From NCBI GenBank assembly GCA_028292625.1, contig JAQGLY010000067.1, positions 1-64,000 of the forward strand: DNA of 64,000 nucleotides, written 5' to 3'. The notes below the pieces were generated by a model. It made no database searches, was not told the origin of the DNA, and saw nothing but the letters and a program-made list of their open reading frames with translations. A program made the position numbers and the translations under genes. This document shows positions 9,919 to 51,528 of the stretch, piece by piece. Numbering within the stretch: position 1 is the first letter of the stretch; each line of letters opens with the position of its first letter. The stretch is from Herbaspirillum sp. (GTDB taxonomy: Bacteria; Pseudomonadota; Gammaproteobacteria; Burkholderiales; Burkholderiaceae_D).

Positions 9919-9974
9919 GGGCGTCTTGCCCTAATTTGCCGCAGTTTTTTTAGTTTTACCGGAACCCATCCCCA

Positions 9975-11081: not shown

Positions 11082-11105
11082 GGCCGGTTCTCTGAAATTT
11101 TGCCG

Positions 11106-11271: not shown

Positions 11272-11309
11272 CGGCAAATTTTAAAGAATACGTAGTGGGA
11301 CCAAGCTCA

Positions 11310-33389: not shown

Positions 33390-34157
33390 TCAGGTGTGCG
33401 CGTGTTCGCCGCGATAGGCCCAGCCGGTCACGCGCTTTTCCATCCACGCGAAAAATTCGTACATCGCCATCGCCATCACCGAGATCATGATCATGCCGGC
33501 GAACATCAGGTCGGTCTTCATGCTGGACGACGCGGACATCATCAGATAGCCGATGCCTTTGTCCGACGCGCTGATTTCCGCCACCACGGTGCCGACGAAG
33601 GCCATCGTCACGGCGATCTTCAGCGACGCGAAGAACAGCGGCATCGAGCGCGGCAGCCCGACTTTCATCAGGATTTCGGTACGCGACGCGCCCAGCGCGC
33701 GCAGGACGTCTTCCAGTTCCGGCTCCAGTGTCGCCAGACCGGTGGCGACGTTGGCGACGATCGGAAAGAACGACAGCAGGAAGGCGGTAATGATGGCCGG
33801 CTTGGTGCCGGTGCCGAACCAGACCACCAGGATCGGCACGAAGGCGGCCTTCGGAATTGAATTGAAGCCGACCAATAGCGGATAAAGCGTGCGGTAGATG
33901 GAGGCCGATACGCCTACCACGCAGCCCAGCAGGATGCCGACGCCGATGGCGATCGCGAAGCCGGCGATGGTGGTCCACAGGGTTTGCCACGAGTGCTCGG
34001 CAATCGGTCCCCGGTTCTCGATCAGTGAACGGAAGATCGCGGATGGCCGCGGCAGGATGAAGGAATCTATCTTGAAGGCGACGCACACGATTTCCCATAT
34101 CCCGAACAGCGCGCATATCGCCAGCAGCGGCGTCAGTCTTGCCAGTTGTTTTTTCAT
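33390..34157 (-). CDS. ABC transporter permease, NitT/TauT (SsuC) type
   Basis: A 255-residue inner-membrane permease with about six membrane helices. The cytoplasmic coupling segment reads ALGASRTEILMKVGLPRSMPLFFASLKIA, the classical EAA loop. It works with the ATPase just upstream (12 bp gap) and the substrate-binding protein at 40,720. Relatives import sulfonates, nitrate, cyanate, thiamine precursors and aromatic acids. The substrate here is unknown; the context suggests the starting compound of the hydroxylase pathway. Confidence 0.93.
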   Translation of the reverse strand: MKKQLARLTPLLAICALFGIWEIVCVAFKIDSFILPRPSAIFRSLIENRGPIAEHSWQTLWTTIAGFAIAIGVGILLGCVVGVSASIYRTLYPLLVGFNSIPKAAFVPILVVWFGTGTKPAIITAFLLSFFPIVANVATGLATLEPELEDVLRALGASRTEILMKVGLPRSMPLFFASLKIAVTMAFVGTVVAEISASDKGIGYLMMSASSSMKTDLMFAGMIMISVMAMAMYEFFAWMEKRVTGWAYRGEHAHT

Positions 34158-34169
34158 CTCGCTCTCGTT

Positions 34170-34952
34170 TCAGGAACGGCGCACGATGCCGATGTGCCCC
34201 AGCAGCTCGTGCACGATGGCGCCGAATTCCGGGGTGTAGGTGATCGCCAGGTCGCGTGGGCGCGGCAGGCCGATCTCCTTGCTGGCGATGATCCGGCCCG
34301 GGCGCGTGCTCATGACGTACACGGTATCGGCAAGAAACGCCGCTTCGCGCAAGTCGTGGGTCACCAGCACCACGGTGAACGGCGCGGCGGCGTGCAGATC
34401 GCGCAGCACGCACCACAGCTCTTCCCGGGTGAAGGCGTCGAGCGCGCCGAAAGGTTCGTCCAGCATCAACAGTTTCGGCTCGTGTATCAGTGCGCGGCAG
34501 ATCGACGCGCGCTGCTGCATGCCGCCGGAAAGCTGCCACGGATATTTATGTTCCCAGCCTTTCAGACCCACGGTTTCGATCAGGCGCATGGCGCGCGCCA
34601 CATACTCGGCGCGCTTGGCGCGGAAGGTGGATTTGTACGGTTGGACAATTTCCAGCGGCAGCAGGACGTTGTCCAGCGTGGTGCGCCACGGCAGCAGATT
34701 GGCTGCCTGGAACGCCATGCCGGTGATCTTCAGCGGCCCCGCCACTTCCCGGCCGTCGACGATGACGACGCCGGCCGACGGCGGCTTGAGGCCGGTGCAT
34801 AACTTCATGAAGGTCGATTTGCCGCAGCCGGACGGGCCGACGATGGCGACGAATTCATGTTCGCCGATGGCGATGTCGACGCCTTCGATGGCGAGCGGCG
34901 ATTCCGCCGAATACTGCAGCGATACGTTTCGGAAATCGATGAACGGCTTCAT
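34170..34952 (-). CDS. ABC transporter ATP-binding protein, NitT/TauT type
   Basis: A 260-residue ATPase. Start MKPFIDFRNVSLQYS overlaps the stop of the molybdenum hydroxylase gene as ATGA. Walker A is GPSGCGKSTFM, signature LSGGMQQRASICRAL, Walker B LLMLDEPFGALD, then VTHDLREAAFLADTVYVM. The MQQR signature and the QAANLLPWRTTLDNV Q-loop are typical of the SsuB/TauB subgroup. The four-base overlap shows that uptake and hydroxylation are encoded in one operon. Confidence 0.95.
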   Translation of the reverse strand: MKPFIDFRNVSLQYSAESPLAIEGVDIAIGEHEFVAIVGPSGCGKSTFMKLCTGLKPPSAGVVIVDGREVAGPLKITGMAFQAANLLPWRTTLDNVLLPLEIVQPYKSTFRAKRAEYVARAMRLIETVGLKGWEHKYPWQLSGGMQQRASICRALIHEPKLLMLDEPFGALDAFTREELWCVLRDLHAAAPFTVVLVTHDLREAAFLADTVYVMSTRPGRIIASKEIGLPRPRDLAITYTPEFGAIVHELLGHIGIVRRS

Positions 34953-37360
34953 TGCGCGTTGCGCCATGGCTCGGCCGCGGCCGCCGTTTCCAGCGCTTGC
35001 GGCCGTGGCGTCGCCGACGCCGCCGGGATGCGGCCGGCATCGATCAGTTCCAGCAGCTTCATCGGCCTGATCGGCACGTCGGCGATATGCACCTTGAACG
35101 GTTCCAGCGCATGATCGATCGCCGATGCGATCGCGGAACCGACGCATACGATCCCCGCCTCGGCCGCGCCCTTGATTCCCAATGGGTTGATCGGCGACGG
35201 CGTTTCGAGCCAGATCAGTTCGATATGCGGCACATCCAGTGCGGTAGGCAGCAGGTAGTCGGCAAAGGTCGTCGTGATCGGCTGGCCGTCGGCGTCATAC
35301 GCCATCCATTCGAACAGCGTGTTGCCGATGCCGTGCGCGATGCTGCCGTGAATCTGTCCGGCGGCGATCTGCGGATTGATCAGCTTGCCGCAATCCTGTA
35401 CGGCGATGTAACGCAGGATCTTGACTTCGCCGGTGTCGATATCGACTTCCACCTCGCATACGTGGAAGGCATTGGCATAGGCCAGGGCATCGATGCGGAA
35501 CATATTGGTGGCTTCCAGTCCCGCACTGACGCCGGCCGGAAAGGCATAGCCGGGCAGCCCGCGCAGCTGGGCGGCGATTTTCGCCAGCGGTATCCCATCT
35601 TCGTCGCGGTCCTTGCGCTGCACGCGGCCGTCGCGCACTTCCAGCGCCTCTTCCGCGGCGTCCAGCATGTGCGCGGCGACCTTGATCGCCTTCTGCTTCA
35701 CTTCGCGGGCGGCCAGCAGCGTCGATGTGCCGGCGGTGATCGCCTGGCGGCTGGCGAATCCGCCCAGTCCGTACGGGATGTGGCCGGTGTCGCCGGCCAC
35801 CACGTCGATCATGTCCATCGCCACGCCAAGCTCGTCCGCGCAGATCTGGGCCAGCGAGGTCTTGATGCCCTGTCCCATTTCGAGCGCGCCGGTATACACC
35901 GCGACGCGTCCGGTGGACGCTACCTTGACCCGCGCCGACTCGAACGGACCGCGGCCCGTGCCCTTGACCGCCTGCGCGATGCCGATGCCGATGTGGCGTC
36001 CCTGCAAACGCGCGGCCCGCTGGCGCGCCGGAAAATCGGCATAGGCTGCTGCGGCCAAAGCATGCTCCTGCGTCTTCAGATAATCGCCGCTGTCGTACAC
36101 GATCGGCGTGCCGGCGCGATTCTTCAGCGGCGTTACATATGGCATCGCCGTCGCAGCAATCAGGTTGCGGCGGCGTATCTCGGTGCGGTCCAGGCCGAGC
36201 TCGCGCGCTGCGCAATCCATCAGCCGTTCCATCGCGAAATTGCTTTGCGGATAACCCGCGCCGCGCACCGGGATCACCGGCACCTTGTTGGTTTGCGCCA
36301 GCACCACTTCCAGATCGTAATGCGGCACCACATAGGCGCCGGGCAGCGAGGTGGCGGCGTTGTAAGGCACGTTGTAGCTGTGCGGCGCGTAGGCGCCCTG
36401 GTCGTGCACCATGCGTCCGCGCACGCCGAGAATCCTGGCGTCGGCGTCGAGCGCGATCTCCAGCGACCAGAAAGCATCCCGTTCCTGGATCGCAGACAGA
36501 AAATGTTCGCGCCGGTCCTCTATCCATTTCACCGGGCGGCCCAGTTTGCGTGCGGCGGCAGGCACCGCAATCTCCTCTGGATAAACCAGATACTTGGCGC
36601 CGAAAGCGCCGCCGACATCGGGCGCGATCACGCGGACATGGTTTTCGTCCAGCTGCAGCATGTGCGCCACGGTATGCGACAGCTCATGCGACATCTGGGT
36701 CGACGACCATACCGTCATTTCAGCTGTGGCCGGATCGAAACGGGCCAGCACGCCGCGTCCTTCCATCGAACTGCCCAGGCCGCGGTGCGTGCTCAGTTCC
36801 TGCCGGAACACATGGGCCGCGCCGGCAAACGCCGACGCGCAATCGCCGTAGCCGAAATTCAAGGTCTTGTAGGTGTTGCTGCCGGTTTCCAGCCGCGAAA
36901 ACGGGGCGTCCGCTGCCAGCACTTCGCGCGCGTCGACGATGGCCGGCAAAGGCTGGTAGTCGACCACGATCGCGTCCGCCGCATCCTCGGCAATATGGCG
37001 CGAAACGGCGACCACCATGGCGATCGCTTCGCCGACATGGACCGCCTCTTTCAGCGTGAGCACGTAAGGCATCACATGCTCGGGCAACTGGCCTTCGGGA
37101 AAGGCAATCGGCATGCGCAGCGACACCAGCTCCGCGGCCAGGTCGGCAGCCGTATAGACGGCGATCACGCCGGCCATGGCCAGCGCGGCGGAGGTGTCGA
37201 TGTCCCGCAGAAACGCGTGCGCATGCGCGCTGCGCACGAAGGTGGCGTGCAAGGTGTCGGGTAGCTTGATGTCGTCGAGATAGCAGCCCTTGCCGGTCAG
37301 CAGGCGCGGATCTTCCTGACGCCTGACCGGCGCTTGGAAATACTTGGGCGTTGGCTTCAT
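34949..37360 (-). CDS. Molybdenum hydroxylase large subunit (CoxL/XDH family), set 1
   Basis: The molybdopterin-binding subunit of a three-subunit hydroxylase; 803 residues from [25 protein letters not shown]. The N-terminal a/b hammerhead is followed by two Mo-binding domains. Seen are EGRGVLARFDPATAEMTVWSSTQ, DVGGAFGAKYLVYPEE and the active-site loop IPVRGAGYPQSNFAMERLMD. IKGAAEAGI places the general-base glutamate. CO dehydrogenases carry AYRCSFR at the active-site loop; here it is VRGAGYP without cysteine, so CO oxidation is unlikely. Gene order is medium, small, large, with ATGA overlaps on both sides. Substrate unknown, probably an N-heterocycle or aldehyde. Confidence 0.9.
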   Translation of the reverse strand: MKPTPKYFQAPVRRQEDPRLLTGKGCYLDDIKLPDTLHATFVRSAHAHAFLRDIDTSAALAMAGVIAVYTAADLAAELVSLRMPIAFPEGQLPEHVMPYVLTLKEAVHVGEAIAMVVAVSRHIAEDAADAIVVDYQPLPAIVDAREVLAADAPFSRLETGSNTYKTLNFGYGDCASAFAGAAHVFRQELSTHRGLGSSMEGRGVLARFDPATAEMTVWSSTQMSHELSHTVAHMLQLDENHVRVIAPDVGGAFGAKYLVYPEEIAVPAAARKLGRPVKWIEDRREHFLSAIQERDAFWSLEIALDADARILGVRGRMVHDQGAYAPHSYNVPYNAATSLPGAYVVPHYDLEVVLAQTNKVPVIPVRGAGYPQSNFAMERLMDCAARELGLDRTEIRRRNLIAATAMPYVTPLKNRAGTPIVYDSGDYLKTQEHALAAAAYADFPARQRAARLQGRHIGIGIAQAVKGTGRGPFESARVKVASTGRVAVYTGALEMGQGIKTSLAQICADELGVAMDMIDVVAGDTGHIPYGLGGFASRQAITAGTSTLLAAREVKQKAIKVAAHMLDAAEEALEVRDGRVQRKDRDEDGIPLAKIAAQLRGLPGYAFPAGVSAGLEATNMFRIDALAYANAFHVCEVEVDIDTGEVKILRYIAVQDCGKLINPQIAAGQIHGSIAHGIGNTLFEWMAYDADGQPITTTFADYLLPTALDVPHIELIWLETPSPINPLGIKGAAEAGIVCVGSAIASAIDHALEPFKVHIADVPIRPMKLLELIDAGRIPAASATPRPQALETAAAAEPWRNAQ

Positions 37361-37863
37361 CGCGCAACTCCTTCGGCGCGCAAGTGAGCAGCGGCATCCA
37401 GCGCGGCGGCGACGATATTCTGGTAACCGGTACAGCGGCAGAGATTGCCGGTCAGCGCCATGCGCACCTCGGCTTCGCTCGGATCCGGATTTTCGCGCAG
37501 CAATTCCACCAGCGTCATCAGGATGCCCGATGTGCAGAAACCGCATTGCAGTCCGTGATGGTCCCAGAATGCCTGCTGCAACGGATGCAGCGCGCCGTCC
37601 ACCGCCAGGCTTTCCACTGTGCGGACATCGCGGCCGTCGGCTTGCGCGGCAAGCATCAGGCAGGATCGTGCGCTGCAGCCGTCGACCAGCACCGTGCAGG
37701 CGCCGCACACGCCGTGTTCGCAGCCGAGATGGGTGCCGGTGAGATGGCGCTGATGGCGCAGATAGTCGGCCAGCGAAACACGGTCCTCGACCGTATCCGT
37801 AATGGTTTCGCCATTGATGCTGAGCGTAATGGCGCTGGTATATGCGTTCGTGCTCTTGCTCAT
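37357..37863 (-). CDS. Molybdenum hydroxylase 2Fe-2S subunit (CoxS family), set 1
   Basis: A 168-residue subunit with two [2Fe-2S] clusters that moves electrons from the Mo site to FAD. The plant-type cluster uses [16 protein letters not shown] plus a later cysteine (ARSC). The helical-domain cluster uses [10 protein letters not shown] and [10 protein letters not shown]. Start [18 protein letters not shown]; four-base ATGA overlaps join it to the medium and large subunit genes. All eight ligand cysteines appear present. Confidence 0.94.
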
Positions 37864-38732
37864 GGTCGCGGTTCCTCCGCTTGAAAAATGGCTGTCTCGA
37901 ATGCCTTGCGCATCACCACAGCCGCGATCCGCTTGCGATACCAGGAAGGGACGAAGGGGTCGTCCGTCGCGTCGATAGGGGCGATGGCGTCGGCCACGAT
38001 GCGCAGCGCGTCGGCGCCGGCGGCGCATCCGATCAGCGCGTGTTCCGCGGCGCTTAGCCGCAGCGGCACATCGGCCACGCCGGCCAAGGTCAGCGATGCG
38101 CGGGTGATTTTTCCCGACTGGTCCAGCGCCACCAGCACCGCGGCGGCGGCGATCGCGAAATCGCCGTGGCGTCGAGCGAATTCGGAAAAACCGACGCCGT
38201 GCGCTTGCGGCCACGCAGCGAAACGGATCGAGGTCAGCATTTCACCGGCGCCGAGGTCCGGCATCATCATGCCCAGCGCAAAATCCTTCATGGCGATCAT
38301 GCGGACGCCGCGCACGCTCTGCACGGTCAGCACCGCGTCGTAAGCCATCGCCATGGCCGGAATTTCGGCCGACGGATCGAGATGGCACAGGCTGCCGCCG
38401 ACGGTGCCCCAGTTGCGGGTCTGCTGGTGGCCGACGTGCGCGATGGCCTCGGCGAGCAAAGGCAGGCGTTCGCGCACCAGCGCCGATTTTTCGATCTGCC
38501 GCTGTCTGGTCATCGCGCCGATGACGACCGCGCCGTCTTCCTCGCGGATGACGGCCAGATCAGGAATGCAGCTGACGTCGATCAGATGGTCGGGATTGGC
38601 GAGGCGCAGATTCAGCATGGCCATCAGCGATTGGCCGCCGGCCAGAATGCGCGCATTCGGCTGTTCGGCCAATAGGACCAGCGCCGCATCGAGGCTGGCC
38701 GGGCGGTGGTAGGTAAAGGGCGCCGGTTTCAT
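37860..38732 (-). CDS. Molybdenum hydroxylase FAD subunit (CoxM family), set 1
   Basis: A 290-residue flavoprotein subunit. The FAD pyrophosphate loop is LAGGQSLMAMLNLRLA (about 31-46), and the second FAD motif is TVGGSLCHLDPSAEIPAMAMA (about 112-132). The CO dehydrogenase flavoprotein C-terminal domain follows (about 175-285). It is the first subunit gene of set 1 and follows the decarboxylase-like gene by 3 bp. The order medium-small-large differs from set 2 (large-medium-small). Confidence 0.93.
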   Translation of the reverse strand: MKPAPFTYHRPASLDAALVLLAEQPNARILAGGQSLMAMLNLRLANPDHLIDVSCIPDLAVIREEDGAVVIGAMTRQRQIEKSALVRERLPLLAEAIAHVGHQQTRNWGTVGGSLCHLDPSAEIPAMAMAYDAVLTVQSVRGVRMIAMKDFALGMMMPDLGAGEMLTSIRFAAWPQAHGVGFSEFARRHGDFAIAAAAVLVALDQSGKITRASLTLAGVADVPLRLSAAEHALIGCAAGADALRIVADAIAPIDATDDPFVPSWYRKRIAAVVMRKAFETAIFQAEEPRP

Positions 38733-38735
38733 GGA

Positions 38736-39728
38736 TCAGATGCGGGAAAGATCCAATACCGATGGGGCGAACAACTCTTCCACCGCTACCTTGCGCGACG
38801 AAAGATGCTGTTCGAAGGAATAGCGGGTCAGCGTGTCGAGCGCATGGTAGTTCTCCGCCACGCCGTAGCTCCAGTAATCCTTGCCCATCAGCGCGACGGT
38901 GGCTTCGTATTCCGCCACGCTCCACGGCAGGCTGACCCACAGCTGGCCGATGTCCTGCACCTGCTGCATCGCAATCCGCTGCGCTTCGATAAAGGCCTTG
39001 TACACGCTGACCGGCAGCCACGGGTGCTGTTCGACCAGCGATTTCCGGATGCCGATCATGTGCATCATCGGGAAAATGCCGGTGCGCCGGAAATAGTCCG
39101 CTTCCACTTCGCGGAAATTGGGAAACATCCGCGCCACGTTCGGCGCGCCGCGGCTGAGGCAGGACGGTGCGCGGGCGCTGAACACCGCGTCGATCTCGCC
39201 CGATTCCAGCATCATCGACAGGCTGCGGTCGGCCGGGATCTGCTTGATCTCGATGTCGGGCGGCAATTGGATCGGCGAACGCTCGTTGCGGCCGGGCTGC
39301 TCGGTGCCGCCGCGGCGCCACAGAATCGAGGCCGGATCGAGGCCGTATTCTTCCTGCAGGATGCCGCGGATCCAGACGTTGGCGGTGATCTGGTATTCCG
39401 GAATGCCGACGGTTTTGCCTTTCAGATCGGCCGGCGTCTTGATGCCTCTGTCGGTGCGGATGTAAATGCCGGAATGGCGAAACACCCGCGATACGAACGC
39501 CGGGATGGCGACATACGGATTGTCGCCGCGCGCGGTGGTCATGGTGTGGCTGCTGATCGAGATTTCGGTGATATCGAAATCCTGGTCGCGGAAGGCGCGG
39601 TGAAACGCCTCTTCCGGTTCGATGATGATGGGATTGATATCGCAGCCTTCGATGCCTACGCGGCCGTCGAAAAGCGCCTTGGTGCGGTCATAATCGCATA
39701 CGGCCAAGCTCAAGCTGGGTTTGGACAA
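38736..39728 (-). CDS. 4,5-dihydroxyphthalate decarboxylase-like protein (PBP-like fold)
   Basis: A 330-residue protein. The start is TTG at 39728 (SKPSLSLAVCDYDRTKAL) because AGGAG stands six bases before it; the frame has an ATG 19 codons up without such a site. VCDYDRTKALFDGRVGIEGCDI, KGKTVGIPEYQITANVWIRGIL and SLVEQHPWLPVSVYKAF match the Pht5 type of decarboxylase, which is built on a periplasmic-binding-protein fold. No signal peptide, so it is cytoplasmic and not a transport receptor. It may decarboxylate an intermediate of this pathway, between the amidase gene and the hydroxylase genes. Substrate unproven. Confidence 0.75.
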   Translation of the reverse strand: MSKPSLSLAVCDYDRTKALFDGRVGIEGCDINPIIIEPEEAFHRAFRDQDFDITEISISSHTMTTARGDNPYVAIPAFVSRVFRHSGIYIRTDRGIKTPADLKGKTVGIPEYQITANVWIRGILQEEYGLDPASILWRRGGTEQPGRNERSPIQLPPDIEIKQIPADRSLSMMLESGEIDAVFSARAPSCLSRGAPNVARMFPNFREVEADYFRRTGIFPMMHMIGIRKSLVEQHPWLPVSVYKAFIEAQRIAMQQVQDIGQLWVSLPWSVAEYEATVALMGKDYWSYGVAENYHALDTLTRYSFEQHLSSRKVAVEELFAPSVLDLSRI

Positions 39729-39747
39729 GGAATTCTCCTGGTAAGGA

Positions 39748-40689
39748 TTAGGGCTTATCGAGCAGTGCGCGCGGAAACATCGCATGCACGCCTTTATTGC
39801 CGTCGACGATCTGGGTCACGTGCAGGTCGCAGGCCAGGCTGCAGCTCACATACGCATCGATCGGCGACCAGCCTTTCAGTTCGACCAGCCATGCGACCAT
39901 TTCGCGCACGGCCTGTTTGGCCGCGTCGTCGAGATCCGGATCGAGTCCCATCGCGATGTAGTGAGTGGGCGTGATGGCGCGCGGAAAGTTGAGCCCGGTG
40001 GCCTTGTGCAACACGATCTGGAAGGTGCCGGTCAGGGCGGTCTCCAGCGCGGTCAGCGACACTTCGCCGTCGCCCTGCACCGCATGGCCGTCCCCTACGG
40101 AAAACAAGGCGCCCGGCACCTGCACCGGCAACAGCAACGTGCTGCCTTCGACCAGTTCCTTGTTATCCATATTGCCGCCGTATTCGCGCGGCTCGATCGA
40201 CGAGACTCTGCCGTATTCCGGGCGCGGCGCCACCGCCATGATGCCGAAGAACGGCTTGAGCGGCACCGTCAGGCCCCATGGCAGATGGGCTTCGCGCCGT
40301 TCGATATCGATCGGAATATTCAATATCTGCAGCGTGCGGAAATCGTCTATCAATCCCCCGCGCAGCGGCCGCACCACGTTGTAACCCCAGTTCTGGCGCA
40401 GCGCGATTGATTCGACGCGGATCTCCAGCGTATCGCCCGGCTCCGCGCCTTCCACCCAGATCGGCCCGGTCAGGATGTGAGGGCCGAGCTGCGGCGCGCA
40501 GTTTTCCAGCACCGCGGCATGCTCCGGCAACAGAGTGGGGGTCTGGGCCGACTCTTCTTTGGAGCCGCTCAGGGTGTCGATCGTGACGCGGTCGCCCGAT
40601 GCGATGCGCATCGCCGGAGCGATGGACGAGTCGAAATACCCCCAGTGAATGGTCTGCGGGCTGGCGGGAAGTTTGTGATGAGCGTTCAT
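39748..40689 (-). CDS. Acetamidase/formamidase-family amidase
   Basis: A 313-residue amidase of the FmdA/AmdA family, which releases ammonia from short amides such as formamide. Seen are TIHWGYFDSSIAPAMRIASGD, GPHILTGPIWVEGAEPGDTL, a middle LPWGLTVPLKPFFGIMAVAP, and GALFSVGDGHAVQGDGEVSLTALET with the family's conserved glycine-aspartate-histidine and glutamate residues. It lies 30 bp after the gene for the ABC binding protein. The link to a transporter and a hydroxylase suggests that a small amide arises during ring breakdown. Confidence 0.9.
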   Translation of the reverse strand: MNAHHKLPASPQTIHWGYFDSSIAPAMRIASGDRVTIDTLSGSKEESAQTPTLLPEHAAVLENCAPQLGPHILTGPIWVEGAEPGDTLEIRVESIALRQNWGYNVVRPLRGGLIDDFRTLQILNIPIDIERREAHLPWGLTVPLKPFFGIMAVAPRPEYGRVSSIEPREYGGNMDNKELVEGSTLLLPVQVPGALFSVGDGHAVQGDGEVSLTALETALTGTFQIVLHKATGLNFPRAITPTHYIAMGLDPDLDDAAKQAVREMVAWLVELKGWSPIDAYVSCSLACDLHVTQIVDGNKGVHAMFPRALLDKP

Positions 40690-40719: not shown

Positions 40720-41784
40720 CTATTTGGTAAAAATCCGGCGTTCGGCCTGGGTCGGCATGAAAGCGGGATTGAACATCAGATCGGGATTCGGCGACTGTTT
40801 CAGATCGAATGCGGAGACGATCTGGCCGACCATCTCCTTGATGCGCGTCTTGTCCGCCATGCCGATGCCGTTCGCCTTGAAATTGGGCGTCGCGATCGAT
40901 ACGGCCAGCGCCATGCGCAAACGGCGTTTTTCGACCTCCACGTCGATCAGCGGATCGCGGTCTTTCACATATTTGATCGCCGCGTCCGGATCGGCCGCCA
41001 CCTCGCGCGCGCCGCGCGTGAAGGCGCGCAGGAAGCCGGCCACGGCTTTCGGGTTGGCGTCGATGAACGCCTGATTGGCGATGATGGCGTTGCCATACAT
41101 TTTCACGCCGTAATCGGCGAACTGCATGCTCGAAATGTCTTCATCCTTCACGCCGCGCGCATTCAGATTCAGCAGGCTGGTGAAATAGAAGCCCGCGACG
41201 GCATCCACGTCGCCGCGCACCAGCATGGTTTCGCGCAGCGTCGGATCCATCGTTTTCCATTTCAGTTTGCTGGCATCGACGCCGTTGGCTGCGGTGAATA
41301 GCGAGAACAGCCTGCGGGTCGGATCGAAAATCGGCGCGCCCAGTGTTTTGCCGACCAGGTCGGACGGCTTGTCGATATGCGACTTTTTGAGCGAAAACAC
41401 GGTCAGCGGCGCCTGTTCATACACCAGATAAACCCCTTGCAGGCGGTTAGAGGCGGCCGCCTGGTTGTTGGCGATGAATTCCATCATGGTGCCCAGATCG
41501 GCGAAACCCATGTCGTAGGTGCCCGATGCGATGCGGTTGATGGTGCTGCCGGACCCCGCGCCGGCGTCGATGGTGACGTCCAGGCCTTCCTGGGCGAAGT
41601 AGCCTTTCGCCAGCGGCAGCAGAAACAGCGCGGCCGGACCCTCGAAGCGCCAATCCAGGATGAATTTGATTTTGACGGGCGCCGATTGCGCGTTGGCGGT
41701 GAGACTCGACAGCGACAGCAGCGCGGTCGCCGCGCCGGCGGCGAGAAACCGGGCAGCGCGTCGGAGGGTCGTGCGTTTGTTCAT
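40720..41784 (-). CDS. ABC transporter substrate-binding protein, NitT/TauT type
   Basis: A 354-residue periplasmic binding protein of the SsuA/THI5 group. The signal peptide MNKRTTLRRAARFLAAGAATALLSLSSLTANAQS ends near residue 33. VKIKFILDWRFEGPAALFLLPLAKGYFAQEGLDV and GSGSTINRIASGTYDMGFADLGTMMEF are typical. It is the first gene of the leftward operon, 54 bp after a sigma-54-type promoter. The matching permease and ATPase lie at the far end of the same gene run. Confidence 0.93.
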   Translation of the reverse strand: MNKRTTLRRAARFLAAGAATALLSLSSLTANAQSAPVKIKFILDWRFEGPAALFLLPLAKGYFAQEGLDVTIDAGAGSGSTINRIASGTYDMGFADLGTMMEFIANNQAAASNRLQGVYLVYEQAPLTVFSLKKSHIDKPSDLVGKTLGAPIFDPTRRLFSLFTAANGVDASKLKWKTMDPTLRETMLVRGDVDAVAGFYFTSLLNLNARGVKDEDISSMQFADYGVKMYGNAIIANQAFIDANPKAVAGFLRAFTRGAREVAADPDAAIKYVKDRDPLIDVEVEKRRLRMALAVSIATPNFKANGIGMADKTRIKEMVGQIVSAFDLKQSPNPDLMFNPAFMPTQAERRIFTK

Positions 41785-41837
41785 AAGGCGCCTTCCATTG
41801 GTTTGAGTTCGACTTGGATGTCAGCATGCAGGGGGAG

Positions 41838-41853
41838 AGCAAGAGATGTGCCA
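41838..41853 (-). promoter_or_regulatory. Sigma-54-type promoter of the leftward operon
   Basis: On the minus strand the sequence is TGGCACATCTCTTGCT, which matches the -24/-12 consensus TGGCAC-N5-TTGCW with GG-N10-GC spacing. The GC is 55 bp before the binding-protein ATG at 41784. The 475-bp gap 41785-42259 holds no gene; it contains this promoter, its mirror at 42208 and inverted repeats between them, the room expected for enhancer sites. Confidence 0.8.
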
Positions 41854-41927
41854 CAGGCGCAGGTCGCGAAAAACCGCCCCGATCGCCGTCGTTAAGGTTG
41901 TCCGGCGCCAACATTGTAAAAATATAT

Positions 41928-41940
41928 GGGGCACACCACG
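41928..41940 (+). promoter_or_regulatory. Motif shared with the 46 kb intergenic region
   Basis: GGGGCACACCACG here and GGGGTGTACCACG (46016-46004, minus strand) agree at 10 of 13 positions. Both lie between divergent genes of the catabolic cluster, so they may be sites of one regulator. Weak evidence. Confidence 0.3.
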
Positions 41941-42062
41941 TATTTACCCCCGCACCACTTTGCTGCACCGGCGCTTCCTGGGGACGCGTCGCGCTCCTTA
42001 CTTGTGCGGAAAACGGTGCGCCCCTGGAATGGCGGTTCCCCGTCGAAATCTGCATAAAAGGA

Positions 42063-42110
42063 GGGGCGCCGTTGCATGCGCACAAGCGGCGGCGCATCGA
42101 TCGGCGCCCC
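42063..42110. repeat. Nested inverted repeat in the divergent control region
   Basis: GGGGCGCCG (42063-42071) pairs with CGGCGCCCC (42102-42110). Inside, ATGCGC (42076-42081) pairs with GCGCAT (42092-42097), with 4-base spacers between the stems on both sides. It lies about 100 bp upstream of the rightward sigma-54-type promoter, where activator sites are expected. Confidence 0.6.
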
Positions 42111-42207
42111 CGGAATAAGAGGCATGCCCCGTAAACATTGGATAGCGCTACGGCCGAAATCCCTTCGCATCGGCATTTCCGGCGCCATCTTTGCCTGCGC
42201 TGGCGGC

Positions 42208-42223
42208 GGGCACATCTCTTGCA
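42208..42223 (+). promoter_or_regulatory. Sigma-54-type promoter of the amidohydrolase operon
   Basis: GGGCACATCTCTTGCA keeps GG-N10-GC and shares the 14-base core GGCACATCTCTTGC with the opposite promoter at 41838-41853. The flank CCTGCGC stands upstream of both. The GC is 38 bp before the ATG at 42260. Confidence 0.75.
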
Positions 42224-42259
42224 CATTGGTTGGATACCTCTTTTCCGGAATGTCAAATC

Positions 42260-43519
42260 ATGATGAAAAAAATTCTTCTCAAAGGCGGCCGCGTAATCGA
42301 TCCGGCTTCCGGCATCGACGCCGTATGCGACGTACTGATCAGCGGCGACCGCATTGCGGCGGTGGGCGAGTCGCTGGCGCAGGAGCAGGCCGAAGTGATC
42401 GATTGCAGCGGGCGCCTGGTGCTGCCCGGTCTGATCGACACGCATGCCCACGTTTATCAATACGTGACCGGCCGCTTCGGCATGAATGCCGACTTGTGCG
42501 GCGTGCGTTCAGGAGTGACCACGCTGGTCGACCAGGGCGGCCCCAGTTGCATGACGCTGCCGGGTTTCCGCGAATTTGTCGTCGCGCAATCGAAGAGCCG
42601 CATCTGCGTTTTCCTGTCCGCCTATCTGGTGGGCGGTCTGGAGGGGCATTTCTATCCTGAGCTGTATCGGCCGGAATGCATCAACGTCGATGCGACGGTC
42701 AAGGCGTGCAAGGCGAATCCGGATCTGGTAAAGGGGATCAAGGCCCATGCCGAACTCGGCGGCTTCGCCCGTTGGGGCGTCGAAGCGATGCGCGCCTCGG
42801 CCCGGATCGGCGCCGAAGCCGGCCTGCCCGTGTATATCCATTTCGGCCAGTTATGGCCGATGCCGACGCAAGGCGGCCTCCCGGTCGACCCCGACACCAT
42901 CTTGGCGCAGGTGGTCGACATGCTGAAACCGGGCGATGTGCTGGCGCATCCGTTCAGCCGGCATCCGGGCGGCTTCGTCGACCGCAATAACCGGCTGCAT
43001 CCGCTGGTGCGCGAAGCGGTCGCGCGCGGGTTGAAGATCGACGTCGGACATGGTTCGCATTTCAGCTACAAGATGGCGCGCACCGTGCTCGACGCCGGCA
43101 TCATGCCCGATACGCTGGGGGCCGACATGCACGGCTATAACACGCAGGTGCCGGCGCCGGCCGGCACGCCGGCGGAGCATCCGGACGAAGAACACATGTT
43201 CACCGGACAGATGCGGTTCAGTCTGGTCTCGGCGATGACCAGCATGCTGGCGCTCGGGCTGACGCTGGAACAGGTGGTGCCGATGGTCACCACCAATGCC
43301 GCGCGCATGGCCGGCCTGTCCGACAGCGCCGGCAGCCTGCAGCCGGGCCGGCTGGCCGACGTGACGGTGCTGGCCGATAAACGGGGCAAGTGGGTGCAGA
43401 CCGACAACGAAGGCACGCAGGTGGTGACCGATCGCATGCTGGAGCCGCTGTTCTGTCTGCTCGGCGGCGAACGTTTCGACGCCGACGCGCCTATCCTGCC
43501 GATGTTGAAGACGGCTTGA
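42260..43519 (+). CDS. Amidohydrolase (dihydroorotase/deacetylase-like)
   Basis: A 419-residue metal-dependent hydrolase of the amidohydrolase superfamily. ATG at 42260 or 42263 starts MMKKILLKGGRVIDPASGID. The metal site includes DTHAHVYQY, KGIKAHAELGGFARWG (lysine position), YIHFGQLWPMP, VLAHPFSRHPGG, and VGHGSHFSYKMARTVL, with GADMHGYN supplying the late aspartate. It ends with the usual small beta domain (GSLQPGRLADVTVLAD). Relatives open cyclic amides or remove acyl groups. It is 9 bp before the DUF1116 gene, and a ring-opening step fits the context. Confidence 0.87.
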   Translation: MMKKILLKGGRVIDPASGIDAVCDVLISGDRIAAVGESLAQEQAEVIDCSGRLVLPGLIDTHAHVYQYVTGRFGMNADLCGVRSGVTTLVDQGGPSCMTLPGFREFVVAQSKSRICVFLSAYLVGGLEGHFYPELYRPECINVDATVKACKANPDLVKGIKAHAELGGFARWGVEAMRASARIGAEAGLPVYIHFGQLWPMPTQGGLPVDPDTILAQVVDMLKPGDVLAHPFSRHPGGFVDRNNRLHPLVREAVARGLKIDVGHGSHFSYKMARTVLDAGIMPDTLGADMHGYNTQVPAPAGTPAEHPDEEHMFTGQMRFSLVSAMTSMLALGLTLEQVVPMVTTNAARMAGLSDSAGSLQPGRLADVTVLADKRGKWVQTDNEGTQVVTDRMLEPLFCLLGGERFDADAPILPMLKTA

Positions 43520-43528
43520 GAACTGCGC

Positions 43529-44764
43529 ATGAGCCAGATCGCCATCGATAACGAGAAAGCCAATCTTCAGGCCTTCGCCCGGCTGTGCGCCGTGCGGCCG
43601 GCCTGGACGGCGGTGCGTCCCGCGCGCGAGGCGCTCGGCCTGTCCGGCTTCACGCTGCTGCATGCCGGGCCGCCGTTCACCGATCCCTGCCGGCCGCCGG
43701 CGCCGGTGCTGGCATCCGCGGTGCATTGCTGCATGCACGAAGGATGGGCGCAAGACGAAACGCAAGCGCGGCGTCTGATCGCGGATGGCCGGGTGAGGCT
43801 GTTGCCGGCCCAGCAATACGGCGCGGTCACGCCGCTGGCGGCGGTCATTTCGCCGGGCACTGCGCTGGTCGAAGTGAGCGATCTCGACAGCGCCGGCGAG
43901 CGCAGACGCGCGTGGTCGATGCTCGGCAGCGGCGCCGGGCCTGAACTGCGTTTCGGCAGCCGCAACCCGGCCATCCTGCAAAGACTGGCCTGGCGCGACG
44001 GGCCGCTGGCCGCCGGCTTGGCGGCGGCCTTGCAAGCGAGGCCGATCGACCTGCTCGGTCCAGCCTTGCTCGGGCTCACCGACGGCGACGATTTGCATGC
44101 GAACACCGGCGCCGCCACCGCGGCATTGTGTGATGTTCTGATCCCGCTGCTGCGCGGCGAGGATGAAGCAGCGATTACCGAAATGCTGAACGGCACACCG
44201 GCGTTTTTCCTCCCGCTGTGGATGGCGGCATGCCATTTGATGCTCGATGCCGCTGCCGATAACGGCCGCGATGCCGCATCGACACTGGTGGTGGCGCTGG
44301 CCGCCAACGGGCAGGACGTCGGGATCCGTCTGGCCGGCCGGCCGGCGCAATGGTTTACCGCGCCCGCGCATCCTCCGGCGGGACCGCGGCTCAATCCGCA
44401 GTTGCAAGCCGACGCGCTTGCGGTCATCGGCGACAGCGGCGTGATCGATGCGCTTGGATTCGGTGGGCAGGCCTTGACGTTTGCGCCGGACATCCTGGCC
44501 GCGTTGCTGCCCTGGATGCCCGCCGGCTGGCGCGACGTGCCGGAGCGATTGAGCGGCGTTCATCCGGCGTTTGCACCGGTCGGGTTGCGCGTCGGTCTCG
44601 ACGCCGCGGCAGTGGGGCGGCGCGATATCGCGCCCGTCACCGCCATCGGAATGATCGATGCCGACGCGCAACATGGACTGCTCGGGCGTGGCGTCTACCT
44701 TGCCCCGGCGGAATTGTTTGCGCGGGCTTCAGAGACGGTGCTAAGAAGTCATGCGCAAACCTAA
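43529..44764 (+). CDS. DUF1116 (AllG/YlbE-like) protein without its usual partners
   Basis: A 411-residue protein. VRPAWTAVRPAREALGLSGFTLLHAGPPF, CMHEGWAQDETQARRLIADGRVRLLPAQQYGAVTPLAAVIS and LRFGSRNPAILQRLAW match the DUF1116 family by my recollection. In E. coli its relative YlbE (AllG) works with FdrA and YlbF in carbamoyl transfer from oxalurate. No FdrA- or YlbF-like gene is seen here. It follows the amidohydrolase by 9 bp and converges on coxG-2 with a 4-bp gap. It may act on a carbamoyl or ureido product of the amidohydrolase; this is inference. Confidence 0.75.
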   Translation: MSQIAIDNEKANLQAFARLCAVRPAWTAVRPAREALGLSGFTLLHAGPPFTDPCRPPAPVLASAVHCCMHEGWAQDETQARRLIADGRVRLLPAQQYGAVTPLAAVISPGTALVEVSDLDSAGERRRAWSMLGSGAGPELRFGSRNPAILQRLAWRDGPLAAGLAAALQARPIDLLGPALLGLTDGDDLHANTGAATAALCDVLIPLLRGEDEAAITEMLNGTPAFFLPLWMAACHLMLDAAADNGRDAASTLVVALAANGQDVGIRLAGRPAQWFTAPAHPPAGPRLNPQLQADALAVIGDSGVIDALGFGGQALTFAPDILAALLPWMPAGWRDVPERLSGVHPAFAPVGLRVGLDAAAVGRRDIAPVTAIGMIDADAQHGLLGRGVYLAPAELFARASETVLRSHAQT

Positions 44765-45420: not shown

Positions 45421-45936
45421 CTAGGGCAGCCGGAACGGCACGCTGCCGTTTTCATTGTTGACCTCGACCAGCATCACCATATGCAACAGGAAGATGTCGC
45501 GTTCGGCCTCCGGCAGATGGGCTACCGTGCGGTCGTGCGCGCGCTGTACGGCGGGCGCCATCTTCTTCATCAGGGCCTTTCCCTTGCGGGTCAGCTTGAC
45601 CAGCCGGACGCGGCCGTCCATCGCGCTCTGTCGGCGTTCCAGCAAGCCGCGGTCGTGCAGCCGCAGCACCACTTCCGCGACGCTGGTGCGTTCCAGGCCG
45701 ATTTCCAATGCGAGGCCGTTCTGGTCCAGTTCGCCGCGTTCGGCCAATGCGGTCATCAGGCTGTATTGCACCGGCGTGATGCCGAAGTCGCGCGTTTCCT
45801 CCATGAAGAGCGAGCAATGCAACTGATGCAGGCGGCGGATCAGGAAGCCCGGCCGGGCCAGCAACGGCGATTTGCGCCTGGCATCTTGAAGCTGCTCCTT
45901 GACGCTGGGACCGGAGGTTTTGTTTGGGGTCGTCAT
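45421..45936 (-). CDS. MarR-family regulator 1
   Basis: A 171-residue winged-helix regulator from MTTPNKTSGPSVKEQL; an upstream in-frame start would add 12 residues. The core RPGFLIRRLHQLHCSLFMEE, ITPVQYSLMTALAE, ERTSVAEVVLRLHDRGLLERR and DGRVRLVKLTRKGKALM gives the MarR fold. It is paralogous to the regulator at 50,107 through RPGFLIRRLHQ and GITPVQYS. It is transcribed with coxG-2 and faces hydroxylase set 2, so it likely controls one or both. Confidence 0.92.
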   Translation of the reverse strand: MTTPNKTSGPSVKEQLQDARRKSPLLARPGFLIRRLHQLHCSLFMEETRDFGITPVQYSLMTALAERGELDQNGLALEIGLERTSVAEVVLRLHDRGLLERRQSAMDGRVRLVKLTRKGKALMKKMAPAVQRAHDRTVAHLPEAERDIFLLHMVMLVEVNNENGSVPFRLP

Positions 45937-46003
45937 GACTGTCCTATGAGATTGACCGTGAAGCATATGCAATTAGCGGACCAGTGCGAAATTCGCCCAG
46001 ATC

Positions 46004-46016
46004 CGTGGTACACCCC
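46004..46016 (-). promoter_or_regulatory. Motif shared with the 42 kb intergenic region
   Basis: GGGGTGTACCACG on the minus strand resembles GGGGCACACCACG at 41928. The gap 45937-46252 (316 bp) between marR-1 and coxL-2 holds no gene; it contains this motif, the palindrome at 46100 and the promoter at 46192. Confidence 0.3.
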
Positions 46017-46191: not shown

Positions 46192-46207
46192 TGGCATGTT
46201 CCTTGCG
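46192..46207 (+). promoter_or_regulatory. Sigma-54-type promoter of hydroxylase set 2
   Basis: TGGCATGTTCCTTGCG has GG-N10-GC and both TGGCA and TTGC cores. The expected transcript start, about 12 bp after the GC, is near 46218. This fits a TTG start at 46253 with its ribosome-binding site, and leaves no leader for the ATG at 46229. Confidence 0.7.
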
Positions 46208-46252
46208 CCGCTGACGGCAATGTCATGAATGCCACCTGGAAAGGGAGCCGCA

Positions 46253-48631
46253 TTGAATACCATTGAAGACAGGAAGCCGAGCGAAACCGGCATCGGCGCT
46301 TCGCTGTTGCGCAAGGAAGACGATCGCTTCCTGCGCGGTCGCGGCCAGTATGTCGGCAATATCCGGATGGTCGGCATGCGCGACGTGGCCTTCGTCCGCA
46401 GCCCCGTCGCCCATGCGCGCATTCGCAGCATAGAAAAGCCGGCAGGCGCGGAAGATGCGGTGTTCGTCCTGTCCGATCTGTCCGGCGTGCGGCCCATCGT
46501 CGCCGACTCGGGCCTGCCCGGATTTCGTTCGTCGGAGCAGCCGGTGCTGGCCGGCGGAAAAGTGCGCCAGGTCGGCGAGATGATCGCCATGTGCGTGGCC
46601 GACAGCCGCGCCGAGGCCGAGGATCTGGCGGCGCAGGTGTTCGCCGATTTCGATGAACTGCCGGCCGTGGTCGACATGCTGGCCGCGCGCGGACCGGCAT
46701 CGCCGCTGGTGCATGAGCACTGGGCCGACAATGTCTTTCTGGAAACCGCCGTCGGTGTGGACGCCGGCGGCGACTTCGACAGCGTATGCGCCGGCGCCGC
46801 GATCAAGGTCCGGCGCCGCCTGCGCACCGCGCGCCAAAGCATGGCGCCGATGGAGGGCCGGGGCGTGGTCGCGCACTGGGACCGGGCGCAGGAACAACTG
46901 GTAATGCATACCTCGGCCCAGATGCCGCATATCAACCGCACCGGCCTGGCCGCCTGCCTTGGCCTGGACGAGGGCAGCATCCGGGTGATCTCGCCGGACG
47001 TGGGCGGCGGTTTCGGCTACAAAGGCATCCTGCTGCCCGAGGAAGTCTGCCTCGGCTGGCTGGCCATGCATTGCGGCCACCCGGTGCGCTGGATCGAAGA
47101 CCGTCGCGAACAACTGACGGCCAATGCCAATTGCCGCGAACATGACTACGACATTACCGGCTATGCCGACCGCGACGGCCGCCTGCTGGCGATCGATTGC
47201 GAAGCGACCGTCGATTCCGGCGCCTATTCCGCCTATCCGTTCTCGGCCTGTCTGGAAGCGGCGCAGATCGGCAGCATTCTGCCTGGACCCTACAAGATGG
47301 AGCGCTATCGCTGCCGTACCTGGTCGGTGGCGACCAACAAACCGCCCATCCTGCCGTACCGCGGCGTGGCCCGGACCGGCGTCTGTTATGCGATCGAAAC
47401 CGTGATGGATGCGATCGCGGTCGAAGCCGGTCTGGAACCGTCGGAGGTCCGCTTGCGCAATCTGGTGCGCGCCGACGAAATGCCGTTCGACAACATCACC
47501 GGCAAACATTTCGACAGCGGCGATTATCCCGAGGCGGTGCGGCGCGCGATGGCGTCCATCGATTTGCCTGCAGTGCGCGCGCGTCAATTGCGCGGCGAAG
47601 CGGATGGACGCCGCATCGGTTTCGGGATGGCGGTGTTCTGCGAACAGGGCGCGCACGGCACCTCGGTCTATCACGGCTGGGGCATCCCGATGGTGCCCGG
47701 ACGCGAACCGGCGGTGGTGCGTCTGACGCCCGACGGCATACTGGAAGTGCGCTGCGGCGTGCATTCCCACGGACAAGGTATGGAAACCACGCTGGCGCAG
47801 ATCGCCAGCGAAGTGCTGGGCATCGCGCCGTCGCGGGTGCGCGTGGTGCTGGGCGATACCGGCGTCACGCCGTACTCCACCGGCACCTGGGGCTCGCGCT
47901 CCATCGTGATGGCCGGCGGCGCGGTCGGCCAGGCGTGCAAGGAATTGAAGGGGCGTCTGAAGCATATCGGCGCGTGGTTGCTTAAGAGCGCGGCGGATGA
48001 GGTGCGATGGGAAGGCGACGGCGTGGCCGCCGGCGGCGCCCGCATCGGCATCGGCGCGCTGGCGCATGCCTGGTATCGCGCGCCGCAGACCTTGCCGCCC
48101 GACGCCGATCCGCGCGGCCTGGAAGTGCATACCACCTACCAGGCCAAGCGCGACACCGGGACCTTCAGCTATGCCTGCCACGCCGTGGTGGTGGCGGTCG
48201 ACACGGAGTTGGGTAAAACCGAGATTCTGGATTACGTGATCGTCGAGGACGGCGGCGTGCTGATCAACCCGATGGTGGTCGACGGCCAGATCTACGGCGG
48301 CGCGGCGCAGGGCATAGGCACCGCGCTGTACGAAGAGATGCGCTATAGCGACGAGGGCCAGCCGCTGGCGTCGACGCTGGCCGATTACATTCTGCCCGGC
48401 GCAACCGAGGTGCCGGCCATCCGTATCGAGCACATGGAAACCCCGGCGCCGTATACCGAGTTCGGCCAGAAGGGCATAGGCGAAAGCGGCGCGATCGGTT
48501 CTACCGCGGCGGTGGCCAATGCGGTCAACGACGCGCTGCGCCCGCTCGGCGTCGAGATCGGCGTGCTGCCGATCACGCCCAGGGTCGTGGTCGACGCGAT
48601 CGCCGCGGCGCGCGCCGGAGACGCCGCATGA
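46253..48631 (+). CDS. Molybdenum hydroxylase large subunit (CoxL/XDH family), set 2
   Basis: The molybdopterin subunit of the second hydroxylase. I choose TTG 46253 (MNTIEDRKPSETGIGASLLR) because AAGGGAG lies five bases before it; ATG 46229 would give eight more residues but has no such site. 792 residues. Seen are EGRGVVAHWDRAQEQLVMHTS, DVGGGFGYKGILLPEE, the active-site loop ILPYRGVARTGVCYAIE and the glutamate of QKGIGESGAIG. As in set 1 the CO dehydrogenase motif AYRCSFR is absent. Genes for FAD and Fe-S subunits follow with ATGA overlaps. Substrate unknown. Confidence 0.9.
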   Translation: MNTIEDRKPSETGIGASLLRKEDDRFLRGRGQYVGNIRMVGMRDVAFVRSPVAHARIRSIEKPAGAEDAVFVLSDLSGVRPIVADSGLPGFRSSEQPVLAGGKVRQVGEMIAMCVADSRAEAEDLAAQVFADFDELPAVVDMLAARGPASPLVHEHWADNVFLETAVGVDAGGDFDSVCAGAAIKVRRRLRTARQSMAPMEGRGVVAHWDRAQEQLVMHTSAQMPHINRTGLAACLGLDEGSIRVISPDVGGGFGYKGILLPEEVCLGWLAMHCGHPVRWIEDRREQLTANANCREHDYDITGYADRDGRLLAIDCEATVDSGAYSAYPFSACLEAAQIGSILPGPYKMERYRCRTWSVATNKPPILPYRGVARTGVCYAIETVMDAIAVEAGLEPSEVRLRNLVRADEMPFDNITGKHFDSGDYPEAVRRAMASIDLPAVRARQLRGEADGRRIGFGMAVFCEQGAHGTSVYHGWGIPMVPGREPAVVRLTPDGILEVRCGVHSHGQGMETTLAQIASEVLGIAPSRVRVVLGDTGVTPYSTGTWGSRSIVMAGGAVGQACKELKGRLKHIGAWLLKSAADEVRWEGDGVAAGGARIGIGALAHAWYRAPQTLPPDADPRGLEVHTTYQAKRDTGTFSYACHAVVVAVDTELGKTEILDYVIVEDGGVLINPMVVDGQIYGGAAQGIGTALYEEMRYSDEGQPLASTLADYILPGATEVPAIRIEHMETPAPYTEFGQKGIGESGAIGSTAAVANAVNDALRPLGVEIGVLPITPRVVVDAIAAARAGDAA

Positions 48632-50106: not shown

Positions 50107-50640
50107 TTATTCCTCGGAGCCCGGCTTGCGCGCCTCCAGCACGGGCGTGCGGCTCAAGCCGTTATTGGTTTCGACCAGCAACAGCAAGGCGCTGATGAAT
50201 TCCTTGCGGCGTGAAGCCGGCAGCGCGGCGATGGTGCGCTGATGCGCGCGCGCCACGTTGGTTTCCAGACGGGCCAGCGTGGCGCGGCCGATTTCGGTCA
50301 GCTCCGCCACTTTTTTTCGTTTGTCGATGCGGGAGACGCGGCGCTGAATCAGACGGCGTTCGGTCAGACGGGCCAGCACGTCGGCAATGTTGGCGCGATC
50401 CAGGCCGACCGCGCGCGACAGGGCGATCTGTTCGGATGGACCCAATTGCTCGATGGCGGTGAGAATGCTGTATTGCACGGGCGTAATGCCCTCCGGCGCG
50501 CATTCCTCCATGAACAAGGCGACATGGATCTGATGCAGCCGCCGGATCAGAAAGCCCGGACGTTCTTCCAGCGAGGTATGGCGCCAGCCGGATGTCGGCA
50601 TGTCTTCCGAGTCCGGTTCCGGTTTCGATCGCGCAGTCAT
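50107..50640 (-). CDS. MarR-family regulator 2
   Basis: A 177-residue regulator. RPGFLIRRLHQIHVALFMEE, GITPVQYSILTAIEQL and DRANIADVLARLTERRLIQRR form the winged helix. It shares the unusual RPGFLIRRLHQ helix with MarR-1 at 45,421, so the two are paralogues. It follows the DUF1989 gene by 11 bp in the same direction. Probably it controls the DUF1989 gene and perhaps the divergent amino-acid-type transporter. Confidence 0.92.
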   Translation of the reverse strand: MTARSKPEPDSEDMPTSGWRHTSLEERPGFLIRRLHQIHVALFMEECAPEGITPVQYSILTAIEQLGPSEQIALSRAVGLDRANIADVLARLTERRLIQRRVSRIDKRKKVAELTEIGRATLARLETNVARAHQRTIAALPASRRKEFISALLLLVETNNGLSRTPVLEARKPGSEE

Positions 50641-51305: not shown

Positions 51306-51512
51306 GAATTGGCTCCTGGCCGAATTGGTTCGTACACATCCTATCAGTCGCATGAAAGCAGATCAACAGCCGTCGGCGGGTTTTTTTGCAACGCACCGGA
51401 ATGCACTGTCCATGCACTTTTTTGTTGAGTCCTTGCGCCAAAAACAGGAGATTTCGGCGCGCCGCTGTCGATATCGGTGCGCCAATCGCAATGCGCCGCG
51501 GCGGCTCAACGA

Positions 51513-51528
51513 TGGCATGCATATTGCT
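51513..51528 (+). promoter_or_regulatory. Sigma-54-type promoter of the second ABC transporter
   Basis: TGGCATGCATATTGCT has GG-N10-GC and the same TGGCATG start as the set 2 promoter. The GC is about 100 bp before the binding-protein ATG. The gap 51306-51625 (320 bp) holds no gene; two TGCAC repeats 11 bp apart lie at 51402 and 51413 upstream of this site. Confidence 0.7.

Follow-up and report, generated by a model that had tools for sequence, protein, structure and literature searches.

The 475 bp that separate two divergent operons in this DNA of Herbaspirillum sp. appear, as judged from the sequence, to form a sigma-54 control region. It is conserved on its plus side, probably responds to NtrC with an added MarR operator, and probably serves a pathway for nitrogen compounds. 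The region was analysed within a stretch of 64,000 nucleotides, referred to as the window. The coordinates of the features are collected in Table 1.

Table 1. Features of the divergent control region and of the genes and candidate sites around it.
Feature	Position	Strand	Remarks
CoxG-type protein	32901..33365	-	
ABC transporter permease	33390..34157	-	
ABC transporter ATPase	34170..35147	-	probably begins only after the CoxL stop
CoxL-type molybdopterin subunit	34949..37360	-	listed ORF extends to 37708; profile start agrees with an ATG at 37360
CoxS-type [2Fe-2S] subunit, 168 aa	37357..37863	-	from translation; CoxS158 match at the corresponding place in L084
CoxM-type FAD subunit of a molybdenum hydroxylase	37860..38732	-	
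Second substrate-binding protein	38736..39785	-	weak NMT1/phosphonate-bd match
Acetamidase/formamidase family protein (FmdA_AmdA)	39748..40689	-	
NMT1/SsuA-type substrate-binding protein	40720..41784	-	first gene of the minus operon
Divergent control region	41785..42259	.	475 bp separating both start codons
Predicted minus sigma-54 promoter TGGCACATCTCTTGCT	41838..41853	-	serves the NMT1-FmdA-SBP-CoxM-CoxS-CoxL-ABC-CoxG operon
Palindrome GGGGCACACCAC, candidate MarR operator	41928..41939	.	74 bp behind the minus promoter
NtrC-box-like 17-mer CGCACCACTTTGCTGCA	41951..41967	.	12/14 against TGCACCAnnnTGGTGCA
Palindrome GAGGCATGCCCC, candidate MarR operator	42119..42130	.	77 bp behind the plus promoter
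Predicted plus sigma-54 promoter GGGCACATCTCTTGCA	42208..42223	+	serves the amidohydrolase-AllG operon
Amidohydrolase/deacetylase-family metallohydrolase (AmidoH)	42260..43519	+	above cut-off to NF006689
AllG family protein (formerly DUF1116)	43529..44764	+	
MarR-family regulator MarR183	45421..45972	-	likely ATG at 45936
Palindrome, third copy	46005..46016	.	between MarR183 and CoxL800
Candidate sigma-54 site TGGCATGTTCCTTGCG	46192..46207	+	before the second CoxLMS operon
CoxL800, second CoxL-type molybdopterin subunit	46229..48631	+	
MarR177, second MarR-family regulator	50107..50640	-	
DUF1989 protein	50652..51353	-	
Candidate sigma-54 site TGGCATGCATATTGCT	51513..51528	+	before the SBP_bac_3/permease operon; counterpart in 29/31 relatives
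SBP3 (SBP_bac_3), amino-acid-type substrate-binding protein	51626..52471	+	likely real start ATG 51626

The two promoter sites share the 14-mer GGCACATCTCTTGC, which is found exactly at 41839-41852 on the minus strand and at 42209-42222 on the plus strand and has no other perfect match in the 64 kb or in the 4.08-Mb genome. Both sites have the GG-N10-GC arrangement of a -24/-12 promoter. The C of the -12 element precedes the start codon by 55 bp on the minus side (41839 to 41784) and by 38 bp on the plus side (42222 to 42260). The initial annotation had reported a common 14-base core, exact spacing at both sites, these two distances and a region of 475 bp, and the coordinates agree with it throughout. 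Transcript starts are predicted at about 41827 for the minus promoter and about 42234 for the plus promoter. The extent of the minus operon was deduced from gene order and spacing. In the stretch 34949-37863, an over-extended CoxL ORF call conceals the CoxS-like minus-strand gene at 37357-37863 and, similarly, the listed SBP3 ORF begins too early.

When the window is scored with a general sigma-54 matrix, the minus and plus sites rank first and third. A second matrix, derived from 42 intergenic sense sites of the E. coli ChIP-seq set in PMC4591121, assigns 18.9 to the minus site (first in the window) and 14.0 to the plus site (fourth). The minus site thus equals or exceeds 40 of the 42 E. coli sites in score and differs from one of them, OS04, at a single base of 16; the plus site equals or exceeds 12 of the 42. 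Under a Markov null, only 0.67 sites are expected per 64 kb on both strands at a score of at least 15.5 with the general matrix, so that two correctly oriented sites within one divergent region of 475 bp are very unlikely to be a product of chance. To this extent the earlier statement that a chance pair is very unlikely stands. The shared core is less exceptional than it implied: among the 47 consensus sites of the genome, 5 of 1081 pairs share the whole core, the present pair included, so that the match is an event of about 0.5% once two sigma-54 sites are given, and not astronomical. Because matrix hits are only modestly in excess over the window as a whole (four sites with a score of at least 14 in the general matrix, against 1.4 expected), conservation is the decisive evidence.

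Relatives of the cluster were collected by scanning public genome records with an AllG alignment, which yielded 56 loci. The amidohydrolase is matched in 48 of these, accompanied by CoxL800 in 34, MarR183 in 36 and SBP3 in 29 of the 48; DUF1989 is matched in 5 of the 56. A usable amidohydrolase start is available for 39 of the 48, and in 34 of the 39 (all except L065, L080, L081, L088 and L094) a -24/-12 core occurs at most 80 bp upstream, compared to 1.2% of random 80-bp pieces. SBP3 could be evaluated in 31 of the 56 loci: 29 of these, all except L089 and L092, have a sigma-54 site with a score of at least 12 (general matrix) in the 400 bp upstream, a level reached by 2.8% of random pieces. 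The same upstream test on CoxL800, which served as a control, gave no site in 35 correctly cut regions; four of the 39 regions (L060, L063, L064 and L090) were wrongly cut and excluded, and the only two scores of at least 12 fall there. Since the core is kept in so many loci, even though their counts are not independent because the relatives are related by descent, we regard the plus promoter as a conserved feature of the cluster. The comparison of both sites in related genomes that the initial annotation had proposed thus came out positive for the position of the plus promoter.

Within flanks of 10 kb, the genes of the minus operon (NMT1, FmdA, SBP, CoxM, CoxS, CoxL, ABC, CoxG) are found in order only in L084, which appears to belong to the same-genus genome G026. 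There they lie between the amidohydrolase and AllG, all in one direction, and a weaker site, AGGCATGGCTTTTGCG, ends 38 bp before a start codon at the amidohydrolase. A second divergent pair like the present one was not found among the 56 loci, so that conservation bears on the plus promoter only. Both sites are scored well by the ChIP-seq-derived matrix, the plus site is backed by conservation, and the genome encodes RpoN in one copy. Their initial description as sigma-54-type is thereby borne out, and the control region looks like one with two genuine sigma-54 promoters. A reading as an RNA element was dropped, as no Rfam family matches at its gathering score in 30000-56000.

The genome contains seven activator-domain matches, five of them strong, and none is on this contig. 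This agrees with the earlier proposal of one activator encoded outside the window, and this activator can be named as NtrC with fair confidence. The respective family cut-offs are exceeded by NtrC (TIGR01818), NorR and PrpR but missed by a NifA-like protein on contig C4; the fifth strong match, on C20, is labelled AcoR-like by us. The ORF just upstream of NtrC reads like NtrB. The five strong proteins (two weak matches of 27.4 and 26.5 bits were outside the set) were compared with the activators of Tatumella and Alloalcanivorax, two distant genomes among five that carry the cluster; the set comprised the 6 and 7 strong ones of 11 and 13 activator-domain matches, those omitted all being below 32 bits. 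Only NtrC has a near full-length counterpart of high identity in both (57% over 487 and 489 aa). For the remaining four, the alignments are partial and mostly in the AAA/Fis region, the longest being that of PrpR (38% over 419 aa). Because NtrC is very widespread, its presence discriminates only weakly.

Candidate binding sites were assessed against the published NtrC boxes TGCACCAnnnTGGTGCA (PMC8743547) and TGCACC(A/T)4TGGTGCA (PMC4987338). The 17-mer between the promoters is the only place in the 64 kb that matches the former at 12 or more of 14 positions; five others reach 11. Shuffles of the region reached 12 in none of 2000 cases and 11 in 18 of 2000, and the genome's own glnA box also scores 12/14. 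Measured from its centre, the 17-mer is 106 bp away from the minus and 249 bp away from the plus promoter, and both distances fall within the 80-250 bp or so at which a box of this type is expected upstream. With a 13-position NtrC consensus, 35 of 57 cluster upstream regions have a match of at least 10, where 6.8 are expected. The half-site TGGTGC is found 19 times upstream of the genome's own sigma-54 sites (4.4 expected; 15 of 30 regions), this and the NtrC-type test covering 30 of the 47 consensus sites. In the relatives, it occurs 36 times upstream of the amidohydrolase (5.4 expected; 25 of 30 regions) and 30 times upstream of SBP3 (4.9 expected; 20 of 24 regions), and 56 of these 66 copies are 60-159 bp from the sigma-54 site. 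Four one-letter variants of the half-site are not enriched in these upstream regions. The half-site and 13-position tests used 30 of the 39 AmidoH loci (omitting L054, L055, L065, L078, L080, L081, L087, L088 and L094) and 24 of the 31 SBP3 loci (omitting L057, L060, L078, L089, L092, L094 and L095), so that the samples lack the loci with no site and certain close repeats.

Not all sites fit equally well. No TGGTGC occurs within 230 bp of the plus promoter, which must therefore use the box 249 bp away, and the exact half-site is also absent at the 46192 and 51513 sites. In L036, a relative from the same genus, the AmidoH promoter matches the 13-position consensus at 9/13 at best. On contigs C31 and C34, an NtrC-type site of at least 11/13 accompanies only one of 17 sigma-54 sites, which makes it probable that a further activator is at work in the genome as well. 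NifA recognizes TGT-N10-ACA. At none of the four window sites do the preceding 260 bp contain this motif; it is equally absent from all 38 sites scanned, so that the scan has no positive control, and the only two NifH-family matches are short and partial (37 and 33 of 271 positions); NifA control is not favoured. On balance, we consider NtrC the likely activator of the control region.

Apart from the NtrC-type box, the control region contains two copies of a 12-bp palindrome of about GTGGTATACCAC, and a third is found near MarR183; the window has five further matches to a loose form of it. In the relatives, the palindrome is 10- to 12-fold enriched upstream of the amidohydrolase (45 copies, 3.9 expected), SBP3 (37, 3.0 expected), MarR183 (39, 3.6 expected) and MarR177 (37, 3.6 expected), where it has to be considered that the motif was defined on the very loci later tested, that MarR183 and AmidoH share an intergenic region in 24 loci, and that the two MarR queries often match one gene. 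It is not enriched upstream of AllG (5, 5.3 expected), CoxL800 (1, 3.4 expected), CoxM278 (1, 3.7 expected), CoxS158 (3, 3.7 expected) or CoxG228 (4, 3.5 expected) in these relatives. When MarR183 genes located away from AmidoH are considered, 10 of 13 have the palindrome upstream, with 0.1 expected per region; one of them, L095, is a poor match. Because of its enrichment upstream of the AmidoH, SBP3 and MarR genes, the palindrome most likely serves the cluster's MarR protein as operator. In all 16 aligned Burkholderia-type relatives, the half-palindrome GGTACACCAC comes immediately after the -12 element, as though the point of transcript initiation were covered by an operator for a repressor; the promoters of the window do not have it.

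These elements can be combined into a model, which we regard as probable in its entirety: an NtrC box placed between a sigma-54 pair would drive both operons, and MarR would add control by substrate. RNA polymerase with RpoN would be present at both promoters in a closed complex. When nitrogen is limiting, phosphorylated NtrC from a gene elsewhere in the genome would bind at 41951-41967 and, by looping, would drive both the transporter/amidase/molybdenum-hydroxylase and the amidohydrolase/AllG operons, which would allow the uptake and breakdown of an alternative nitrogen source. The cluster-encoded MarR protein would probably bind the palindromes about 75 bp behind each promoter and thereby make expression dependent on the substrate. 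NtrC occupancy, looping, MarR binding, the nitrogen-source role and the common control of the two operons are what we infer from the arrangement of sites and genes. More tentatively, a two-key switch may be envisaged, in which the MarR operators between the NtrC enhancer and the sigma-54 promoters permit opening only if a shortage of nitrogen coincides with the presence of the substrate. The nitrogen-compound pathway under this conserved switch would be shared by genera that include Paraburkholderia, Cupriavidus, Pseudomonas and Tatumella, and in the present genome the switch might have been mirror-copied to capture a second operon.

Other readings have to be weighed against the model of joint NtrC control. 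The sigma-54 promoters may be real and be served by another of the genome's own enhancer-binding proteins (NifA-like, AcoR-like, PrpR or NorR). With five strong activator-domain matches there are candidates, and the scarcity of good NtrC-type sites on C31 and C34 would fit, as would L048 (570-1016), the only one of the 56 loci with an enhancer-binding-protein domain match in its flanks, about 2.1 kb from the MarR gene. We nevertheless think this unlikely, given that the four non-NtrC proteins align only partly with the 13 strong Tatumella and Alloalcanivorax activators, that the NifA motif is absent at the four window sites (with the above reservation about the positive control), and that PrpR adjoins a -24/-12 site of its own on C81. 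It is quite improbable that both promoters are used under unlinked control, each with its own activator or sites, and that the 14-mer is a coincidence or a relic. The distance of 249 bp between box and plus promoter, longer than for most half-sites of the relatives, and the existence of other core-sharing pairs in the genome would be compatible with this, but promoters and palindromes are arranged as mirror images (74 and 77 bp), and L084 has the genes of both operons in one orientation.

The two copies of the 14-mer constitute a perfect inverted repeat, 356 bp apart, and might thus be taken for an operator of a MarR or LysR protein instead of a promoter pair. This is very improbable, as the relatives conserve the -24/-12 core and not the spacer, and a different palindrome is the better operator candidate. 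That the sites are chance consensus matches in GC-rich DNA and sigma-70 promoters do the work is hardly credible: the modest window-wide excess of matrix hits would by itself permit it, but the frequency of the core in relatives is far above its background, and a sigma-70 promoter reading was dropped because no sigma-70-like promoter was found in 41600-42400.

The joint control by NtrC that we prefer leaves the origin of the matching core to be considered. The core match, the mirrored palindromes and a CCTGCGC stretch behind both promoters suggest an inverted copy, and the minus promoter may have arisen as such a copy of the plus promoter. When the stretch between the promoters is aligned with its own reverse complement, a score of 26 is obtained (p 0.0017 of 3000 shuffles), compared to 15, 12 and 14 for direct, reverse and complement control alignments. 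Since 54 of 1500 real window pieces of the same size score as high, the evidence for an inverted copy is only moderate, and an inverted duplication of the whole region is retained at that level only.

The sites at 46192 and 51513 are, together with the divergent pair, the four best of the window, and they would extend the local sigma-54 regulon. Neither they nor the NtrC-type box, the paired palindromes and the possible duplication had been listed in the initial annotation. In the entire genome, the strict consensus KGGCAYNNNNNTTGCW occurs at 47 sites and the reversed pattern at 5, so that the genome probably uses sigma-54 promoters widely. Eleven of the strict sites are clustered within about 60 kb on contig C34 (L115-L125), where five downstream genes that were scanned code for an ABC transporter, a CoxM-type protein, a luciferase-like monooxygenase, an NMT1 protein and an MFS protein. 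An NtrC-type site of 11/13 in the 13-position consensus accompanies just one of the eleven. Perhaps C34 is a second sigma-54 catabolic island with a different activator; a nif cluster, which was also considered, is not borne out by the NifH-family matches or by the downstream genes. In a search for a common upstream dyad at the 17 sites of C31 and C34, four-base arms did not exceed shuffles, and with five-base arms only gapless GCGGC did (3 regions, compared to at most 2 in 30 shuffles). Further divergent strict pairs are located on C13 (38613-38704) and C31 (32848-33050). The C13 pair is flanked by genes for transglutaminase/DUF2126 and circularly permuted ATP-grasp proteins, and DUF404/407 is presumably an ATP-grasp family.

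With these results, a widely shared catabolic cluster is placed in a probable NtrC/sigma-54 response to nitrogen limitation, which narrows the growth condition under which its substrate may be sought. The control region also offers a compact natural case of a single enhancer that would serve a divergent pair of sigma-54 promoters, a MarR-type operator lying between them. A literature search returned nothing that we recognised as this cluster or its regulation; absence from print is not claimed.

Two of the closest parallels concern nitrogen scavenging. The hpxWXYZ genes carry an AtzH-like domain, an amidase and a gamma-glutamyltranspeptidase. These are also present in the relative L053 (Pseudomonas sp. 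RIT409), where AllG and an AtzH-like domain are found in one open frame (9974-11554), followed by the amidase and the gamma-glutamyltranspeptidase. To our knowledge, the CoxLMS/AmidoH/AllG set is not part of hpx. For the hpx purine genes of Klebsiella oxytoca, control by NtrC and sigma-54 has been suggested from promoter sequences, with data not shown (PMC8381380), and the resemblance is that of nitrogen-scavenging operons with suggested NtrC/sigma-54 control. The NtrC/sigma-54 regulon of Burkholderia cenocepacia H111 includes ABC transporters, xanthine dehydrogenase, a urate oxidase cluster and a transglutaminase/DUF404-407 cluster (PMC5491218). An apparent copy of the latter in the present genome has a divergent sigma-54 pair and an NtrC-type site of 12/13. 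In contrast, the AmidoH/AllG/CoxLMS cluster is not named for the H111 regulon in the accessible part of that paper.

With the E. coli allFGHK operon, which is activated by AllS and ArcA according to PMC11326118 and PMC12535856, the cluster shares the AllG subunit family. It differs in that neither AllF nor AllH is matched among the 20 window proteins scanned around the AllG-family protein.

Divergent sigma-54 promoters are well documented in E. coli. There, FhlA and ZraR each serve both sides of their divergent pair. The pairs hycA/hypA and zraP/zraSR are listed as OS27/OS28 and OS38/OS39 in Table 1 of PMC4591121; the published activators are FhlA for hypA and ZraR for zraP. As in these two cases, two outward-facing sigma-54 sites are present in one intergenic region and, since divergent pairs are an established arrangement, the control region described here is essentially familiar in kind. 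It differs from hyc/hyp and zraP/zraSR, which have a pathway-specific activator, in that the activator is probably the global NtrC, encoded by an unlinked gene, and that a MarR-type palindrome has been added.
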